Shown piece by piece: positions 12,100 through 56,357 of a DNA stretch of 64,000 nt. Each line of letters opens with the position of its first letter. Within the stretch, counting starts at the first letter, position 1. Origin of the DNA: Candolleomyces eurysporus (taxonomy: Eukaryota; Basidiomycota; Agaricomycetes; Agaricales; Psathyrellaceae); the NCBI GenBank assembly GCA_027579435.1, contig JANBPK010000936.1:1-64000 (forward strand). Reading direction: 5' to 3'. The notes under the pieces are model-generated. The model had not been told where the DNA came from. It ran no database searches and saw only the letters and a list, made by a program, of their open reading frames with translations. The translations under genes and the position numbers were made by a program.

Positions 12100-12730
12100 C
12101 TACATGCTAACATAACCCAGCGTCAACATAAGCCTCTCAAACAGAAACTGGCAATCGGGACCAAACACGCGGTACGGGATTTCTAAATCCTTCAGAACCT
12201 TCCTAAAAACGTCCATGCAGGCTTCTTGATTCTCAAGAGACCGTACCCCATCATCGATAAGCCATGCCTGGACTGGAGAGAGCAGAATGAATACCGAGTG
12301 ATGATCTCGATACCTTTCAAGGGCAGCCTTGAAAGCAAGGCGCCCAACCAACGCTTCTTTGCGCTGCCTCGCTTCTTCGGCATTTGAAGAGGTCAAGATG
12401 GCGTATGCGATAGGATCGATGGCTGATCTATCGCACAGGACCAGGTTGGCCGCTTCCAATGCCTTCTCTTCTTCGTTTGAATGAGCCTCCATAATGTCTA
12501 GCTGCATTTGCAGGTTCCCAACGGTGTCCCTAGAATATCCTTTCTCGCGCATGACACGCCGGGCCACCTCCTTCACGTAGGCGGCACTCTCGAGACCCAG
12601 CCTTTTGGCTAGGGCATCACAGAGTGTCGTCTTTCCCGTGGACTGGCACGACTGTCAGAATTCTGATACTCATCGCTGAACTGCTCGCGTTACTCACAGA
12701 TGGTCCGATGATGTAGATAGCTTTCTTCAT
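12100..12730 (-). CDS. P-loop nucleoside kinase/ATPase, AAA_28-like
   Basis: Two exons joined by a 46-bp intron (12652-12697) give a 194-residue protein. It starts MKKAIYIIGPSSCQSTGKTT, a strand followed by a Walker A loop of the STGKTT type that straddles the splice junction. Further on VLCDRSAIDPIAYA resembles the Walker B/DRS segment of AAA_28 (NadR/Ttd14-like) proteins, and FILLSPVQAWLIDDGVRS with RVFGPD sits where that family has its C-terminal strands. An in-frame upstream extension exists (to 12826), but the start at 12730 places Met directly before the first strand. The gene is divergent from the RdRP-helicase gene, with only about 170 bp between the starts and a TATTTAAA at about 12793-12800. 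The substrate is unknown. Confidence 0.72.
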
Positions 12731-12899
12731 GCTGCCAATAGGATGGAAGCAAAGACAAAGCTGCGGAGTTTCGTAAGCGTCCATGCTCTCCCTATTTAAA
12801 CTCGCCACTTGAAGGGGCGGTCTCACGGTCCCGTTCTTCCTCTTCCCGTCCTTGTCGATTGACCCTGTTGCAGGATCCGTGCAACAGTGCCCATCGAAT
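12731..12899. promoter_or_regulatory. Short shared (divergent) promoter region
   Basis: Only 169 bp separate the ATG of the minus-strand AAA_28-like gene from the ATG of the RdRP-helicase gene. It contains a TATTTAAA-like element (about 12793-12800). Co-regulation of the pair is an inference from spacing only. Confidence 0.4.
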
Positions 12900-15800
12900 A
12901 TGAGGGTTCAGGCTCTGGTACTTCGAGAAAGTCCCCAAATCGACGACAATGATTGGCATTTCACCGTTCCGCCCCAGTACCTGTCCGTTGAGTTACGACG
13001 GGCGAGGATGCTCAACGTGAGGCTCTCTGATAAAGGGATCGTCCTCGATACGGACAAAATCTCCTCAAATCGCATTCTACACTCGGATGACCCCACCAAA
13101 TTCATCCTTTTGGGAATCAAACGGTCGTTTCGATTCCCCGATCATCCGCCAAAAGTGACTGTGGAGTACCTTATTCGCATGTTCAAAGCAGGTCTCTTCC
13201 TCAACGATGTCCAATACCGTTTCTACCACCACAGCAACAGTCAATTGGTGCGTTTTCAATCTATTCCTGAGCCCGATTGCTTACATCCCACTTCCAGCGC
13301 GAACGCTCGTGTTTCCTGAGGGAGGCGAAAACGGACGAAGAGCTGGACACAAGAATATACGCAATGGGGGACTTTGGCCGCATCATGAACGCTTCTAAAC
13401 GTAAGTCCCATCTTCTTTGGTCACGGATGGGCGATTTACCCCAGCTCAGGCGCCAAGAGGATCGGTCTCCTCTTTTCGTCCGCCGAGGTCGACTTTCAGC
13501 TTGATCCCAAGTTCGTGGCAGATATCCCGGATATCGAATTAGGGGACGAAGTGTTCTCGGATGGTTGCGGGCTTATGAGCAAGCAGCTCGCGAAGATGGT
13601 CGCGAAGAAGAAGGGGCTTGTTTTTCGTGGTACGAGGTATACCCCAACCGTCATTCAGATTCGGTACGCCCAGTGGCTTATATTATTTTTCCCTCCCTTA
13701 CTCACCTCACTTTCTCTTTGATTCTAGTTATCTGGGATATAAAGGCGTTCTGATGATCCACCCCAAGATGGACGCAGAAAGTCGCGCAAGAGATAAGGAG
13801 ACGGAAAACCTTCATCTCGCAGAGTTCCGAAAGAGTATGAAGAAGTTCAAAGCTACGGGCGACTATAGCTTCTCCGTTGTGGGTTACTCGAAGCCCTACT
13901 CGTTCGGTCGCCTCAACAACGACATCGTCGTCCTCATATCCAGCCTCGGCATTACAGACGAAAAGTTCCTCGAGAAACAAGCGGCGTACTTTGAATGGAT
14001 CAAAAGGGCATCCACCAACGTCAACGCTGCCATCGACTTCCTCTCCTCCACCGACAAATATCCGCTCGCAGAGAAGGTCTTCCTCGATGGGTTGACGCCG
14101 GACCATCTACGAGAAGTACGCAAGTTGCAGATGGATGAGTTGACGAGACACCATGATAAGGAGACGGGGAAGTTTAAAACGCGGATGCTTATTCACAAAT
14201 CGAGGAGGTTGTATGGGGTTTGCGATCCACATCAGGTGCTGAAGGAGGGTCAGGTTCACATACGTGTTACGATTGGGAGGAAAGGCCCCTCTACCCCGAT
14301 TCATGGCGACGTTTTGGTTGTTCGCAATCCTTGTCTCCATCCTGGTACGTCGTCTTTCTTCACGGTTCGTTCCTCGGACTATTCAATCTGATCAATCGTT
14401 GTTCGGATTAAGGCGATTGTTTGAAGCTTAGGGCTGTTGCTCACGAGGCTCTCAACGACCTTGTGGACTGCATTGTTTTTGCTACTGTTGCAAAACCCGG
14501 TCATAAGCCTGCTCCGTCAATGAGTAGTGGCGGTGATCTCGATGGTGAGTAGCTCCGTCTTCGTTTCATTCAAGCTGGTCAATCTCATTACGAACTCCGC
14601 ACCAAGGGGACGAGNTTTTTTGTTTGCTGGGACAAGGATCTTGTACCAACTCAAACTCTCGAGGTACTAAACCATTCCCTGCTCTTATGAGCGCGTATCT
14701 GATGCTTTTGTTACAGGCGTACGACTATCCGCCGAATCGGGAGAAGAAGAGCAAGGCAATCACCCGAATGGATCTGGCCACGTACTTCGCCTCGTTCAAC
14801 ACGTGCGTCGTCTAGCATTTATACCGACTGTCTTTCTTGTTAATCTCCTTTGTTTTCTTAGATCTGGGGTCGCTCGTGTATCTGCTCTTCACAACAAATG
14901 GGCAATCGCTAGCCCGGAAGGTGCTATGTGCGCTGAATGCCAGGAATTGAACGCTTTACATTCACAGTCCGTCGACGGCGCTAACATCAAGATCCCCGAC
15001 CGTCTGAAGACTCCTCCTGAGCTTCCGGAAGGCCAACGTTTCATCATCGATCTCCTCAAAGAGCACCAAGAAACGTTCGAAGCGGAGTTCCTTGAAGAAC
15101 GTGCTAACGTGGCAGCCTTACAGGATGTCGAGGTTGAAGACCCCAAAACAGTCCTCGAACGACTCCTCAAGAGCAAGAAAAATGCGCTCTCAGAGTACGA
15201 GATCTTTGATTTGGCTTTTAGGCTCTCGATAAAGTTCAAGTTTGACTTGATACCTTACCTTCCCGAGATTGACGTCTCAGCTTTGAGTGCGTGGGAGAAG
15301 CATCTTATGGTTTCGACATTGAAACTCTCTCGCATTGATTTTCCGCATATCTGGAATTCTTTGTTCCAGTCGGATATCTTGTCGTCGACGGACTTGACTG
15401 TCCACGGCCTCGATTCGTCATTCTCGTTGCAGAAGTTATATTCGTCCACGGTTCAGAGTCAGGCGACCTTCTTCGAGTACTTGCGGAGGGCTACTCAGAG
15501 CTATACGCGCAAGCTATTATTGATTCGAGTATGTCGCTCACTTTATTTGCCTATCAATGGTCTGACGCTCCTCATTGTTATAACAGACAGACGATCGATT
15601 TGCCGTTGGGATATTCATGCGAGGCGACATACCTTGGGACGAGGAGCCAGAAGTCAACAATAACGTCGTCGTCGTAACTTTCCTGTCCCAGTCTTCGATA
15701 ACTATGCCGACCAATACTCCTTGTCCGAAAGGCTACCGTCTTCATTGCAGTTTCTCGAGAATGCAGTTGTACGACAAGCAACAGAGCGATACCTTTATCT

Positions 15801-18800
15801 TCATCCAGCGTTCACCTCTGGGCCTGCAGTCCGAGGTTGTAGCGAGTATCGCGCTGCAGAAGATATCTGGAAATGTTCAAAGGGTGAGTATCAACGCTAT
15901 TACGGGAACGCACCGATCCTTTCTGACTGCTCTGTGTATGTAGCAAATCGGTCGGTTGAACCGACAATCTCTTGCAAAGATTGAATTACATGTAGTCTCG
16001 AATCACGATCGCGTTGCTCACCAACTGTTTGATATGTGGTTTGATCAGTGAGTACCCATTTTTAATGGCCCTCGTATTCAGTACAGTGCTCATCCCCGAC
16101 TCAGCGTCCCAACGGAAGAATATCTCAGACGCTTCCCTCGAAAAGCGACGCCCTATCGATTCAACGATATTCGCGATGTTGACTGGGAGCCTCCGTTCGA
16201 ACACGAGGATGACCTATCTGAAGCTGAGGTCGGACGACAACGTGAAGAATGGAGGTTGAGAGTCAAGCGACTGAATCTCGTTCAGGAAGTAATGTACCCT
16301 TACCCGGAAGATATGAACGCATCCCCTGGCCGAACGAGGAGACAACATACAGAAGGCTCAGTTCGTCGCGTTCTCGTGAACGCTACGATCGACGATCTGG
16401 ACTTCATCCTCGAGTTTTCCGCCTTTTATCATGCCGACGACGAACTTGTTCTCATCTTTCATCACGCGCTGCACGGAGAGACGCTTCCAAGTGCGGATTT
16501 CATCTCCAAATGGATCACTCGGTGCCCTTCACTCGTTTTCGTCCTCTTGAAGGCGTACCTTCCTACAGACGATCTCCTTCTTCACCCCGACATCGCAGAG
16601 CTCGGTCTCATCCATGAAATTACCCATGCTATTGTTCGCTCCGCCAACGAAACCCGCATCGCTGCACTCGTCGCGCTGGAAAAAATTGCTGCATCCCTGG
16701 CTACGCTTCGGCTTCAAGACTATATCGACCTTCTTATGGAGGTCGCACTATCAGTTCGCTGGAAAGACCTTGTTCAAGAAGTGCTTCTGGTCCTCAACGA
16801 AAGCCGACTCAACCATCTCCCTCAACCCCTCTCACCTACCAATGTGTATGCTCACAAACATGCCTTGAATGTTGTGTTTGATAGCGCGGAAGAAGCTGCG
16901 GATGAGTGTCCGTGCACCGACGACGGAAGGCCTAGATTAAAACAACGGACTCCGCCCACGCAGGTCAAGTCCTTGGTGTTTGCTTCGGCGGAAGGTGGTT
17001 GGACGGAGTCGATGTTTGCGGTGAAAGCCCATATACGTGTTGATGCAAAGCATGGGATTAGGTTGCACTCACATGTCCGGCTGAAGGCGACGTCGAAACC
17101 TGAGAATCAGTTCGTTAATACGCCGGTTCTAGACGGGTTGGTGGTTGTGGCGAATAGGGGGGAGTATAGGATCAAGCTAATGCAGCCTGCGCCGCCCGAG
17201 CTGGAGGCAATGGACTGGTTGATTTATTCAGCTGGGAGTATAGGTGCGAGTTCCTTTGTCTACAACGCGATTTGGGCGCGACGTCTAACTTGGTTACTTC
17301 GCATGCTGCAGCTACGTCCCAAGCTATGCTTGATGCTCTGAAAACGTTGGTCGTTGAGAAAGGTTCCTGTTGCCGTTTCTATGATATTATTACGGGCGAT
17401 GAAGCCAGCGGCTATTGGTCCGATGGTTCTGATGAAACAGCCCCTTCTCCGAGTCGGCGGAAAGGAAAACAGCGAGGGATATCATCGCCTGCTGAGAGCA
17501 TTGACGACACTGCTGAAGCTCATGAGCTGCGATCACCGCTTAGTGAGACTCTGGAGGCTGCGGGACCTAGCCGTTATCAGCTTCGAAATCGCGATGAGGA
17601 GGTTGATGATGACGCCGGAGAGAGTTCTACCTCGAACTCGGATGGAGGCAAAGCACCTTTGGATATTGTTGTACCATCCGATGTCTCTTTGAACGATAGT
17701 CAGATGCAGGCAATCAGATCTTGGAATGCTCGACTTTCGTTGATATGGGGTCCACCAGGTACGTCGCATAGGACTTTCCGACTAGCTGAGAAACCATTGA
17801 CACTTTGGGTACTATAGGAACTGGAAAAACCACTGTTGTCGTCCAAGTTCTACGCAGCATCCTTCTGACGTATGGATCTAAAAAGCACCCCAAGATATTG
17901 ATGACAGCATCAACGCACAACGGTGAGTCTTTCAATAGACACTATTCTTCAAACCCTCTGAACGCCATCTCTGTAGCTGTCGACAATGTTCTTGAACGAT
18001 TTATTCGCATCAATGCTAAAGAAAAGCTATTATCCAATGACCAAATACTTCGAGTTGCTACCGACCAATTGAAAGTCAATGAAGACCTCCACCCCTATAC
18101 CTTGAACGATCGTGTCGGCGGGGACGTGAATGAGAACAAGAGATTGCTGAAGCAGGCGGAAGACAGAGTGAAGAAGGCTACGCTCGTGTTTTCTACCTGT
18201 GCAGGTGCGCAGTGTCCATAGAACGTCCAATGTTATTCCGATGCTAATCCTAGTATAACCTCGATATGTAGGATCTGGACTTGGAATTTTGAGGAAATTC
18301 AAATTCGATATCGCGATTATCGACGAAGCGTCTCAAATTACCGAGCCTTGCGCGCTCATTCCGTTTGTGAAAGGAGTAAAAAGAGGAATCATGGTTGGAG
18401 ATCAGTGAGTCCTTTCTATCGACCCTGGTTGGTCCCCACAACCCGTCGTTGACTGGTCCGCATGTAGCGTCCAACTTCGGCCCTTGGTGCGCAAACTAGG
18501 AATGGCGCTTGAAGGAGACGTCTCTCTTCTCGAACGCCTTTATACTCAAGACAATCAAAACGTGGACGGACTCACCAAAACGATGCTGAACGAGCAATAT
18601 CGTTCACCGAGAAACCTCAATGCCTTTCCTTCCAGCGAGTTCTATCAAGGTCTTCTCAAGACGGCGGAGAGCAATGAGAACAAATTACAGGTCCTGGAAG
18701 GCCTAGCATTCCCATGGCCTCGTCAGAACCGGACGATCGAGCCGGCGGTATTCATCCAATGCCAAGACGAGGAGGATCTTGGAGGGCGATCGAAGAGTAA

Positions 18801-19227
18801 CGAAGGACAGATCCGAGTTATACTGAAAGTACTCGAACTGCTGAAACCCAAGGCTCTAGACGTTTCGCCCCCGGAGGACACACCCAGTATCACCATCCTT
18901 TCGCCGTACCGTGGTCAAATTTTAAAACTGAAGAACAGGGTCCCTTCTTCTATCCCAGTATCCACCGTGGATTCATTTCAAGGACGTGAAAGCGACATAA
19001 TCATATTTTCGACCGTTCGAAGCAACGCGGATGGGGAGATTGGGTTTCTGGAGGATCATCGAAGGTTGAATGTGATGTGGACGCGGGCGAGGATTGCCTT
19101 GATCATCGTTGGAAACGAGGCTACATTATGTCAGGGTAGTGAGCTGTGGAAAAAGGCGCTGAAGGCGTGCAAGAGAGTTCCCGATCCTGCGATCTTTGAT
19201 CCGCCGGCGCCTTCTGAGGAGGAATAG
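12900..19227 (+). CDS. RNA-dependent RNA polymerase fused to SF1 (Upf1/Hrr1-like) helicase
   Basis: Sixteen exons with 15 introns of 49-68 bp (the first 13248-13297, the last 18405-18467) give about 1811 residues once the N at 14615 is ignored. Phases fit at every junction. Residues about 30-830 match the eukaryotic RdRP (QDE-1/Rdp1/SAD-1) family: RGTRYTPTVIQIRYLGYKGV, GYSKPYSFGRLNNDIV, GDVLVVRNPCLHPGD and the catalytic loop SGGDLDGDEFFVCWD (DLDGD at about 469-473). VGIFMRGDIPWDEEPEVNNN and VVSNHDRVAHQLFDMWFD follow. A region of about 350 residues then leads to an acidic Ser-rich linker (about 1290-1370). The helicase occupies about 1375-1795, with motif I GPPGTGKTT, Ia STHNAVDNVLERF, II DEASQ, III GDHVQLRP, IV NEQYRSP, V VDSFQGRESDIIIFSTVRSN and VI RRLNVMWTRAR. 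RdRPs of this family make dsRNA for RNA silencing. The N-terminus before the catalytic core is short compared with QDE-1. Expected site of action is nuclear or perinuclear, by family analogy. Confidence 0.9.
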
Positions 19228-45807: not shown

Positions 45808-45938
45808 TACTTTGTTGTCCTGCTCAGCGAAGGTGTGGCAAAGGAATAAACGGTGACGAAACAACGCAGCACTTAGATTGTAGATTTTGGGAAAATTGAA
45901 TACAAATACACTTCATTTTGAATTTCATGACACTGAAA

Positions 45939-46852
45939 TGACCATCCGAATTCTAGTGGGCGCAGCTCCGGATACCCCCCAACTCCGTCTCTCAACAAGG
46001 GCTCGAGGAGCGCCATGACCTCCCCTGCCAGCTTCGCATCCCGCGCCTCCAGCTTCTCTAGATCTCTCATCGCAGAGCTCCTCTCCTCTGGGGTCAATGG
46101 CCTCTCCCTCGCTTTGACAAGCGCCTCGGCAACCTTTCTCTGCAACCTGCTCCCTTCAGCTTTCTCATCTGAGAAAGCGACCATGTTTCCCCTCCTCACG
46201 ACCGAAACATGGTCGACGAAGTTTACCTCGTCGATCCACTCCGCCATGATCATGAGCCCGTGGTGGGAATCGTCATGGATCTTCACTGGCGTGAGGCGGA
46301 TAGGCAGATTCCTGCTCCCAGCCTCGGGCAGCCTCTCGTGAAAGCGGTGTAAGATACCCAACCTGCTCAGCGCCACGGCCACCGCCATCACGATGACCTC
46401 GATGCGGTACCCCGCTTCGCCGAACATGCGGGCCAACTCCCGAAAGTCATCCAGGTGTCGGCACGCGCTCTCGAGGAGCACGTCTAGCTTCAGGGAGATT
46501 GCCTCAGCGGTGGCCATGGCGAGCCACTTCCATGCATCAGGGCCCGTGGCGGGCGATGCGTGTGCAGAACTGTCATCGGAAGCTAGCAGGGAGGGGTAGG
46601 CTGGATGGAGGGCTTTATAGACATCAGCGATGAAGTGCGCAGGCGGGTGGGTGCGCGTCATGGCGGAGAGGATGGGGAGCGCAGTACGGGTTTCGCCCAC
46701 GCCAGTTTGGCCAATGATGAGGACGGCAAGAGACCGGCCTCAGCTGGGATGTATTGTCAAGGTCGGGGGCAGGTCGGCGGGGAGGATTTCGGTGGTGAAG
46801 ATGCGGAAGGACTCCAACTCTGGGAGGATATGGTGAGAGAGATCTGGCACAT
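45939..46852 (-). pseudogene. Zeta-toxin-like P-loop kinase, inactivated copy
   Basis: This is a close relative of the intact ORF at 54721-55641. Compared with that copy it has four lesions: a 7-bp deletion directly after the former start codon (near 46850) that shifts the frame; a CGA-to-TGA nonsense change in the segment before the P-loop; a Glu codon in place of the Walker A lysine (the loop reads GQTGVGET instead of GQTGAGKT); and loss of the original stop, so the remaining frame runs on to 45873. The rest of the frame (about 275 codons) is still open and well conserved, so inactivation is recent. Activity is very unlikely because the phosphate-binding lysine is lost. Confidence 0.75.
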
Positions 46853-54589: not shown

Positions 54590-56357
54590 TTTGTCGTACT
54601 GCCCAGCCTAGGTGAATGGCGAACGAATAAACGGTTGACGAAACAACGCAGGAAATGGATTGTAGATTTTGGGAAAATTGAATACGAATACACTCCATTT
54701 TAAATTCGACTCCACTAAAATCACCATCCGAATTCTAGTGGGCGCAGCTCCGGATACCCCTCAACTCCGTCTCTCGACAAGGGCTCAAGGAGCGCCATGA
54801 CCTCCCTTGCCAGCTTCGCATCCCGCTCCTCCAGCTTCTCTAGATCTCTCGCAGCAGAGCTCCTCTCCTCTGGGGTCAATGGCCTCTCCCTTTCTTTGAT
54901 AAGCGCTTCGGCAACCTTTCTCGGCAACCTGCTCCCTTCAGCTTTCTCATCCGAGAAAGCGACCATGTTTCCCCTCCTCACGACCGAAACACGGTCGACG
55001 AAGTTTACCTCATCGATCCACTCCGCCACGCTCATGAGCCCGTGGTAAGAATCGTCATGGATCTTCACTGGCGTGAGGCGGATAGGCAGATTCCTGCTCC
55101 CAGCCTCGGGCAGCCTCTCGTGAAAGCGGTGCAAGATACCCAACCTGCTCAGCGCCGCGGGCACCGCCATCACGATGACCTCGACGCGGTACCCCGCCTC
55201 GCCGAACATGCGGGCCAACTCCCGAAAGTCATCTGGGTGTCGGCACGCGCTCTCGAGGAGCACGTCCAACTTCCGGGAGATTGCCTCGGCGACGGCCATG
55301 GCGAGCCACTTCCGTGCATCAGGGCTCGTGGCGGGCGATGCGTGTGCAGAACTGTCATCGGAGGCTAGCAGGGAGAGGTAGGCTGGATGGTGGGCTTTAT
55401 AGACATCAGCGATGAAGTGCGCAGGCGGGTGGGTGCGCGTCATGGCGGAGAGGATGGGGAGTGCGGTACGGGTTTTGCCCGCGCCGGTTTGGCCGACGAT
55501 GAGGACGGCAAGGGGCCGGCCTCGGCTGGGATGTGGTGTCAAGGTCGGGGGCAGGTCGGCGGGGAGGATCTCGGTGGTGAAGATGCGGCGGGACTCCGAC
55601 TCTGGGAGGATATGGTGAGAGAGATCTGGTGGAGGCGGCATTTTGGGGCAATGGGCTTTTGGGTATGCTCTTCCTAGTACACGCTGAGCAGCGTTGGCGG
55701 GATAATCTCGAAAATGTAAACGAGAAAGGTGAATCAGTGCGCGCCTCGTAAGTGGAGAGTTCCATTTCTAGACGCTTGCGAACAGTGGTGAGATCAGATC
55801 TAATCTACTCCTTTATCTAATCTTATGTCGTGTGAAAATAGAACTATACCCGGGCATCTACCTCACTCGCTCTTGCACCTTGCACTCGACATTCGGGTGT
55901 AGTTCGTTCTTTTGGGTGGGACTATAGCCACAACAATGGCTACCTTGCTAGAGCTCGACAACCAACGACTTCGGCGTGTGGCCTGGAAAGGTCAAGTCAA
56001 GGGGACGAGCGCATTTTGAGTGCTCTTACATCCCGTGCGTACTTTCTTCGATGAAATTTATGACACGGTTCAATGACTCGACTCGTCTGCCGCTGTAAAA
56101 TGGTCTCCTAGACCACCACAGCTCATGCTATTCGACGACGATGGCTACGACTCCTCAGGCCTCAATTGCAACCTCAAATATCCCATCTTCCCTCTAACTC
56201 AAGCCTGTTCCTCGACGTCCTTCCAGGGATTCCGCGTTTGAGACTGGACGAACTGCAAGGTCCTATCTCTGATCCTACCTCAGGTTCATCATCGGATTCG
56301 TGAATCCACCACGTCTCTTAGTGCTAGACCTGCTTATTGTCACCGGGAGTACGAAGG
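54590..56357. repeat. Segmental duplication, copy 2 (1.77 kb)
   Basis: Aligns to 45808-47550 (copy 1). It includes the intact zeta-toxin-like gene on the minus strand and its upstream flank. Beyond 56357 it continues into sequence that copy 1 lacks but that a third, diverged copy at 59.2-59.9 kb retains. Confidence 0.85.
54721..55641 (-). CDS. Zeta-toxin-like P-loop kinase domain protein
   Basis: A single-exon ORF of 306 residues. After about 45 residues the Walker A loop GQTGAGKT is preceded by the strand LAVLIV. Next come HFIADVYKAHHPAYLSLLAS (position of the zeta family's substrate-binding D..[KR]..HP.Y), LDVLLESACRHPDDFRELAR (family pattern: v.ET t.r...), FGEAGYRVEVIVMAVPAALS (aGY.v.vv.vavp...S) and LGILHRFHERLPEAGSRNLP. 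HDDSYHGL and VSVVRRGNMV follow. This order matches the zeta-toxin family (PF06414 type), whose bacterial members phosphorylate UDP-N-acetylglucosamine. In fungi the role is unknown and the protein may act on another nucleotide-linked substrate. No signal peptide is present, so it is expected to be cytosolic. A decayed duplicate is at 45.9-46.9 kb. Confidence 0.68.
   Translation of the reverse strand: MPPPPDLSHHILPESESRRIFTTEILPADLPPTLTPHPSRGRPLAVLIVGQTGAGKTRTALPILSAMTRTHPPAHFIADVYKAHHPAYLSLLASDDSSAHASPATSPDARKWLAMAVAEAISRKLDVLLESACRHPDDFRELARMFGEAGYRVEVIVMAVPAALSRLGILHRFHERLPEAGSRNLPIRLTPVKIHDDSYHGLMSVAEWIDEVNFVDRVSVVRRGNMVAFSDEKAEGSRLPRKVAEALIKERERPLTPEERSSAARDLEKLEERDAKLAREVMALLEPLSRDGVEGYPELRPLEFGW

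Follow-up and report, generated by a model that had tools for sequence, protein, structure and literature searches.

A mushroom gene joining an RNA-dependent RNA polymerase to a UPF1-like helicase, its AAA_28 neighbour, and their relatives in fungi and animals

Introduction

Proteins that carry an RNA-dependent RNA polymerase (RdRP) and a helicase in one chain have been described in a fungus and in an animal. In Fusarium graminearum, the accessible sections of one account report that Fgrdrp5 (FGSG_09076) joins RdRP, DEXDc and PF13087 AAA domains, that its deletion leaves ascospore discharge at 47.6% of wild type, that it belongs in the authors' view to the exonic small interfering RNA (siRNA) pathway, and that it forms a branch separate from QDE-1, SAD-1 and RRP-3 (PMC11237814). 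The excerpt available on the amphioxus Branchiostoma lanceolatum describes BL02069, which combines RdRP with AAA_12 (PMC6396948). Bdelloids are reported, likewise in excerpt, to carry a mean of 38.9 RdRP copies (PMC7943196), and the available parts of three further papers give RdRP counts without describing a fused architecture (PMC4290597, PMC5974365, PMC6572790). In Schizosaccharomyces pombe the helicase Hrr1 is identified, in the portion of the source at hand, as the ZNFX-1 orthologue (PMC9276528). Here we analyse a gene of the mushroom Candolleomyces eurysporus that encodes a fusion of this general kind, at 12900..19227 on the forward strand of a 64,000-nucleotide stretch (the window: positions 1 to 64,000 of contig JANBPK010000936.1, assembly GCA_027579435.1). 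Such a fusion is not a first sighting, being known in databases and, from the two partly accessible accounts of Fgrdrp5 and BL02069, in print. We lean towards a reading in which the chain, whose RDR2-type RdRP is followed by a TLDc-like module, a helical stretch and lastly a UPF1-like SF1B helicase (SF1, superfamily 1), would copy RNA, with the product of a head-to-head AAA_28 gene as a third enzyme.

Results

A single frame encodes both enzymes

An independent splice search recovered one frame from 12900 to 19227, in which 15 GT-AG introns, each 49-68 bp long, separate 16 exons; the product has 1810 amino acids (aa). This reproduces the sixteen exons and unbroken frame that an earlier, sequence-only reading had described. 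Exons 1-5 lie at 12900-13247, 13298-13400, 13450-13663, 13728-14344 and 14413-14548, exons 6-10 at 14615-14663, 14717-14802, 14862-15528, 15587-15883 and 15944-16047, and exons 11-16 at 16105-17243, 17312-17758, 17818-17922, 17977-18204, 18272-18404 and 18468-19227, all on the forward strand. The junction between polymerase and helicase consists of open exons, and exon 12 alone runs without a stop from the 1B region of the helicase to motif I. The window holds 15 single Ns, one of which, at 14615, stands beside the catalytic loop of the RdRP: intron 5 splits the DLDGD loop, and the N falls one codon past the loop's last D. The DxDGD codons are present, yet the adjoining N makes the frame depend on that base, and the frame past 14615 matches relatives only if the N is no real base. 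Because our model retains an X for this N, its intron 5 has an unusual splice pair (14549-14614), the consensus-like pair being 14545-14606, and the edges of this intron are unsure. Both enzymes nevertheless appear complete, as had been claimed; the split of the DLDGD loop by intron 5 is a correction to that account.

By Pfam, an RdRP domain (PF05183) covers residues 92-561 at 324 bits against a curated cut-off of 23.8, within an RdRP core of residues ~92-566 (13173..15006) whose counterpart in the homologue P0117 has a predicted RDR2-like fold. AAA_11 (best stretch, residues 1380-1493) and AAA_12 (residues 1575-1775) both score above cut-off in an SF1 helicase core of residues ~1380-1795 (17689..19179), and its conserved motifs are in line with the earlier description of a complete and legible SF1 helicase. 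In an AlphaFold2 (AF2) model of a second homologue, P0128, compared with UPF1 and IGHMBP2, the predicted stalk and 1B insert of UPF1-like SF1 helicases are present, corresponding here to residues ~1141-1300 (16904..17451), a stretch that includes the start of a low-complexity linker. Upstream of it, AF2 models point to a helical region of no assigned family (residues ~881-1140, 16124..16903). Between polymerase and helicase, residues ~682-858 (15352..16000, transferred from P0117 673-849) are predicted by fold comparison to adopt a TLDc fold. PF07534 was absent from four pieces of this region at E values up to 10, and the 50 matches listed for the P0128 model, all taken up by helicases, included no TLDc chain; with a negative profile comparison (see Discussion), we therefore use only the label TLDc-like. 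These structures are predictions made on relatives (P0117, P0128) of the window protein.

The fusion across mushroom-forming fungi

Of 7988 candidates scored in a whole-protein search, 308 proteins matched, and the best 120 of these are considered here. Close homologues align nearly end to end, among them proteins of Coprinellus aureogranulatus (identity 70%, query coverage 98%) and Coprinopsis cinerea (61% and 99%); the closest among the matches listed are those of Coprinellus aureogranulatus and Ephemerocybe angulata (71%), both of which we take to be Psathyrellaceae mushrooms. More than half of the RdRP catalytic region and of the helicase core is covered in 95 of the 120, and the named species presumably represent many orders of Agaricomycetes. 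The single fused gene of the sequence-only reading thus holds, the partnership it predicted for other basidiomycetes occurs there (and in ascomycetes and animals), and its question of whether the architecture is catalogued can be answered: PF05183 with AAA_11/AAA_12 is already in databases across mushroom-forming fungi.

Among the 90 listed homologues of 1500-1900 aa, D[LF]DGD is present in 84, Walker A in 70 and DEA/S in 79. The catalytic loop reads GGDLDGDE in 34 of them, and most others have GGDLDGD followed by K, R or Q. Half of the 20 proteins that miss Walker A are models that skip exactly the exon carrying motifs I and Ia (WGPP then AVDN: P0029, P0078, P0080, P0082, P0085, P0089, P0090, P0093, P0107 and P0115), which in the window is the symmetric, 105-nt exon 13. 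Nine of the ten form one group in the fused-protein tree, and the tenth comes from C. cinerea, where another model of that gene, P0003, retains the exon. The skip could reflect alternative splicing, unusual splice sites that were missed, or loss. We do not claim a clade-wide loss of ATPase activity, because P0085 and P0107 retain the DEAS motif despite the skip. As a separate observation, what we take to be Omphalotaceae fusions (P0080, P0089, P0090, P0093, P0115) are placed in that tree among presumed Russulales ones (P0078, P0082, P0085, P0107), hinting at transfer or hidden paralogy.

Fusions beyond mushrooms and their shared anatomy

A search with the helicase alone gave 1044 hits; in the best 120 of these, proteins of Trichoderma, Dactylella, Fusarium and Apiospora are interspersed with mushroom pieces or follow them. 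Five long ascomycete-like pieces (P0140, P0141, P0142, P0154, P0172) align from window residue ~502-654 through the helicase, and P0240 of the ascomycete Wetmoreana aligns to window residues 4-1791 at 32%, its RdRP, middle part and helicase being collinear with those of the window protein. When proteins of at least 1845 aa were searched with the RdRP core, 29 of 102 candidates matched: 22 have AAA_11/AAA_12 and 7 have SF2 helicase domains. The 22 comprise 3 mushroom records, the ascomycetes Wetmoreana and Epichloe, Oopsacas minuta, Adineta steineri and 15 proteins without a species name; taxonomy was looked up for Wetmoreana, O. minuta (a glass sponge) and A. steineri (a bdelloid rotifer). AAA_28 is also present in 17 of the 22, which we call animal-type. 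The seven long RdRPs with SF2 domains (PF00270 and/or PF00271) are P0257, P0259 and P0261-P0265, with Irineochytrium, Dendronephthya and Macrostomum among their sources.

BLAST and profile comparison of 23 fungal with 17 animal-type sequences found the same order of parts in both: RdRP core, residues 567-717, residues 718-880 and helicase. Fungal and animal-type profiles match at 97.4% over residues 567-717 and at 95.9% over residues 718-880, and four single animal-type sequences put to the same comparison gave 71-89% and 44-74%; neither region was detected in any of the seven SF2-fused RdRPs. An RdRP tree of 28 rows, for which 5 of the genome's 8 stitched unfused RdRPs and 7 of the 17 animal-type fusions were used, supports the fungal fusions at 98/98, those of animals at 92/88 and the two sets combined at 100/100. 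A tree that keeps all SF1 fusions in one clade is not rejected (p 0.528).

An AAA_28 gene lies head to head with the fusion gene

On the reverse strand at 12100..12730 lies a gene for a P-loop protein of 191 aa (exon 12730-12698, intron 12697-12643, exon 12642-12100). It matches AAA_28 (PF13521) at 83 bits against a cut-off of 27 and has the P-loop GPSSTGKT; with the NadR family TIGR01526 of NCBIfam it reaches 45 bits against a curated cut-off of 341. The start codons of the two divergent genes lie 169 bp apart, and the stretch between them (12731..12899) may be a shared promoter; a promoter scan of it, built on a bacterial consensus, found nothing. PF13521 and the neighbour protein each match one place in the genome, adjoining the fusion gene (in the family search, 29 of 55 first-look candidates were scored).

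The same domain is listed in 17/17 animal-type fusions, 0/5 fungal ones and 0/7 SF2-fused RdRPs. It occupies residues 3-188 in the three animal-type fusions scanned, a P-loop lies close to the N-terminus in 16 of the 17, and none was found in the first 200 residues of 12 fungal fusions checked. By hhalign, the mushroom AAA_28 protein matches the animal N-terminal profile at 99.0% (E 8.5e-18, residues 1-168 on 1-170). In animals, as read from domain content, AAA_28, RdRP and UPF1-like helicase are one chain, and parts that are fused in one lineage and adjoining in another are a classic pattern. Viral contigs scanned with the AAA_28 protein, P0242, P0003 and P0154 as single sequences gave no relatives.

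The source genome

RdRP matches occur on eight contigs of the genome and 40 AAA_12 matches on others, counts that are lower bounds; both occur together only on the window's contig, and a DNA search of the genome turned up no further copy of the fusion gene. The genome also has matches to Argonaute and RNase III, as well as ZNFX1-family genes separate from the fusion gene; four similar ones (G000:C353 and C1252; L016, L020, L021) make up a small expansion. Elsewhere, two nearly identical unfused RdRP genes stand in tandem ~4.2 kb apart (G000:C1140:20500-29500, L033), and the window itself has two kinase-like Zeta_toxin (PF06414) open reading frames on the reverse strand, at 45873-46700 and 54721-55641 (122 and 163 bits).

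Discussion

The anatomy of this chain, its presence in fungi and animals and, in one genome, its gene neighbourhood are borne out by comparison of sequences; its enzyme activities, its substrates and any link to RNA interference (RNAi) are what we infer from these. The RdRP part would turn single-stranded RNA into double-stranded RNA (dsRNA), and the tethered helicase, judging by its family, would hydrolyse ATP and travel 5'->3'. UPF1-like helicases travel 5'->3', and since such travel on the template takes the helicase to the 3' end, where the RdRP starts, the simplest role would be template clearing and delivery, whereby the helicase strips proteins and structure off the template and presents its 3' end to the polymerase. 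Alternatively, it might unwind the product to release the template. The head-to-head AAA_28 protein would be the third enzyme of one unit; AAA_28/NadR-like P-loops are kinase-like, and it would probably phosphorylate RNA ends or nucleotides. In fungi, the two genes may share a promoter and their proteins may be in physical contact. We also entertain, without quite favouring it, a broader idea: that AAA_28, RdRP/TLDc-like and UPF1-like helicase parts formed an ancient RNA-copying machine of the fungal-animal ancestor, today a ~2000-residue chain in animals and head-to-head genes in mushrooms, maybe reaching beyond classical RNAi. If so, mushrooms, with the parts split over two genes, would be a test bed for a widespread and unexplained animal RdRP, dsRNA synthesis would gain a new candidate enzyme in this chain, and there would be a reason why some animals retain RdRPs that they do not use for RNAi.

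Several observations weigh against these proposals and in part favour other explanations. One might ask whether two genes have been wrongly joined by the splice reading, as most of the helicase core is missing from 24 of the 120 listed models (and neither half is covered in one). These short models look like split or cut annotations, because they end inside the helicase (14 at residues 1251-1312 and 9 at 1419-1559; one is a partial record), and together with the joined majority and the stop-free exon 12 this leads us to rule out two separate genes as a highly improbable account. For Tephrocybe (P0102/P0127, adjoining H0H87_008442/008443) and Psilocybe cubensis (P0074/P0132), databases list the two halves separately, as a short RdRP entry and a helicase entry on equally long contigs; these, too, probably reflect split annotation. 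The sequence-only reading had seen in the gene a fused fission-yeast RDRC, with Rdp1 and its Hrr1 helicase in one chain. The enzyme types are the same, and the pairing of an RdRP with an SF1 helicase stands; the Hrr1 identity is not supported, as the nearest solved helicase by sequence is UPF1 (162.9 bits) and not ZNFX1 (96.6 bits). In fold comparison the P0128 model gives Z scores of 31.5 with IGHMBP2, 30.0 with UPF1 and 20.8 with ZNFX1, although ZNFX1 aligns over more residues (568, versus 464 for IGHMBP2). Of the separate domain trees proposed at the outset, the RdRP tree joins the fusions, while the helicase tree (31 rows, 7 of them stitched paralogues, DNA2-like and others excluded, and no Hrr1 or SAD-3 rows) does not reject a clade of ZNFX and fusions, and with it a deep ZNFX link (approximately unbiased test, AU p 0.359). 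An earlier helicase tree, whose ascomycete-labelled rows included P0137, P0154 and P0155 without species names, had that clade at 93/84 with a very long ZNFX stem. The fusion helicase looks closer to UPF1/IGHMBP2 than to ZNFX1/Hrr1 in sequence and predicted fold, and we consider a fused RDRC improbable.

The fungal and animal fusions could also be of separate origin or have been transferred between kingdoms. They group together in the helicase tree at only 18/78, their profiles do not match over the helical region (0.2%) or 1B (6.9%), the N-terminal AAA_28 is confined to animal-type fusions, and the RdRP group at 100/100 includes the long-branched SF2-fused chytrid protein P0257; moreover, the animal origin of 15 of the 17 animal-type proteins is an inference from grouping. 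With region 567-880 common to both, the strongly supported RdRP group, a clade of all SF1 fusions unrejected, and fungal and animal fusions each forming a group of their own, we regard separate origin or transfer as rather unlikely. The TLDc assignment comes from one predicted model; when a thin profile of the region, 4 rows deep, was compared with TLDc by hhalign, the result was 0.2%, against as much as 3.2% for control stretches. That the AAA_28 gene lies beside the fusion gene by chance might be argued from the single genome in which adjacency is known and from the link having been spotted once the animal architecture was known. Yet the sole PF13521 match found, with 29 of 55 first-look candidates scored, is the immediate head-to-head neighbour, for which the odds would be ~1-2 in 10,000 with an assumed, typical 10,000-20,000 genes, and chance seems to us a poor explanation. 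The alternative that gives us most pause, though still an unlikely one, is that the chain works outside RNAi, for example in UPF1-like decay or surveillance of aberrant mRNA: its helicase is UPF1-like, and amphioxus, owner of an RdRP-AAA_12 gene, reportedly makes no RNAi use of its RdRPs in the text accessible (PMC6396948). Against this stand the Argonaute and RNase III matches in the source genome and the exonic siRNA pathway in which Fgrdrp5 is placed by the available sections (PMC11237814).

Having set these alternatives beside the favoured reading, an RNA-copying chain with an AAA_28 partner, we can compare it with known systems. The open-licence literature searched held no report of the fusion besides Fgrdrp5 and BL02069, and none of the AAA_28 link or the TLDc-like module. 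Fgrdrp5 is an RdRP-helicase chain like that of the window, but from an ascomycete and likened by description, not sequence; its account mentions, in the accessible sections, neither a kinase neighbour nor a TLDc-like module (PMC11237814). BL02069, also likened by description, is an animal RdRP with AAA_12 as in the fusion, AAA_12 being the only helicase entry in the figure legend at hand (PMC6396948). SF2-fused RdRPs are likewise tied to a helicase, but one of another superfamily, and lack a detectable region 567-880. Plant RDR2 matches model residues 8-583, leaving helicase and TLDc-like module unmatched, and TLDc proteins (OXR, NCOA7, mEAK7, Skywalker, Rtc5) have the fold predicted for residues ~682-858 with undetectable sequence similarity. 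Unlike the fusion, UPF1 and IGHMBP2 helicases have no polymerase attached. Finally, the S. pombe RDRC (Rdp1, Hrr1, Cid12) pairs an RdRP with an SF1 helicase as the fusion does, but as separate subunits, and its helicase is the ZNFX-1 orthologue according to the excerpt cited (PMC9276528), whereas that of the window is UPF1-like.
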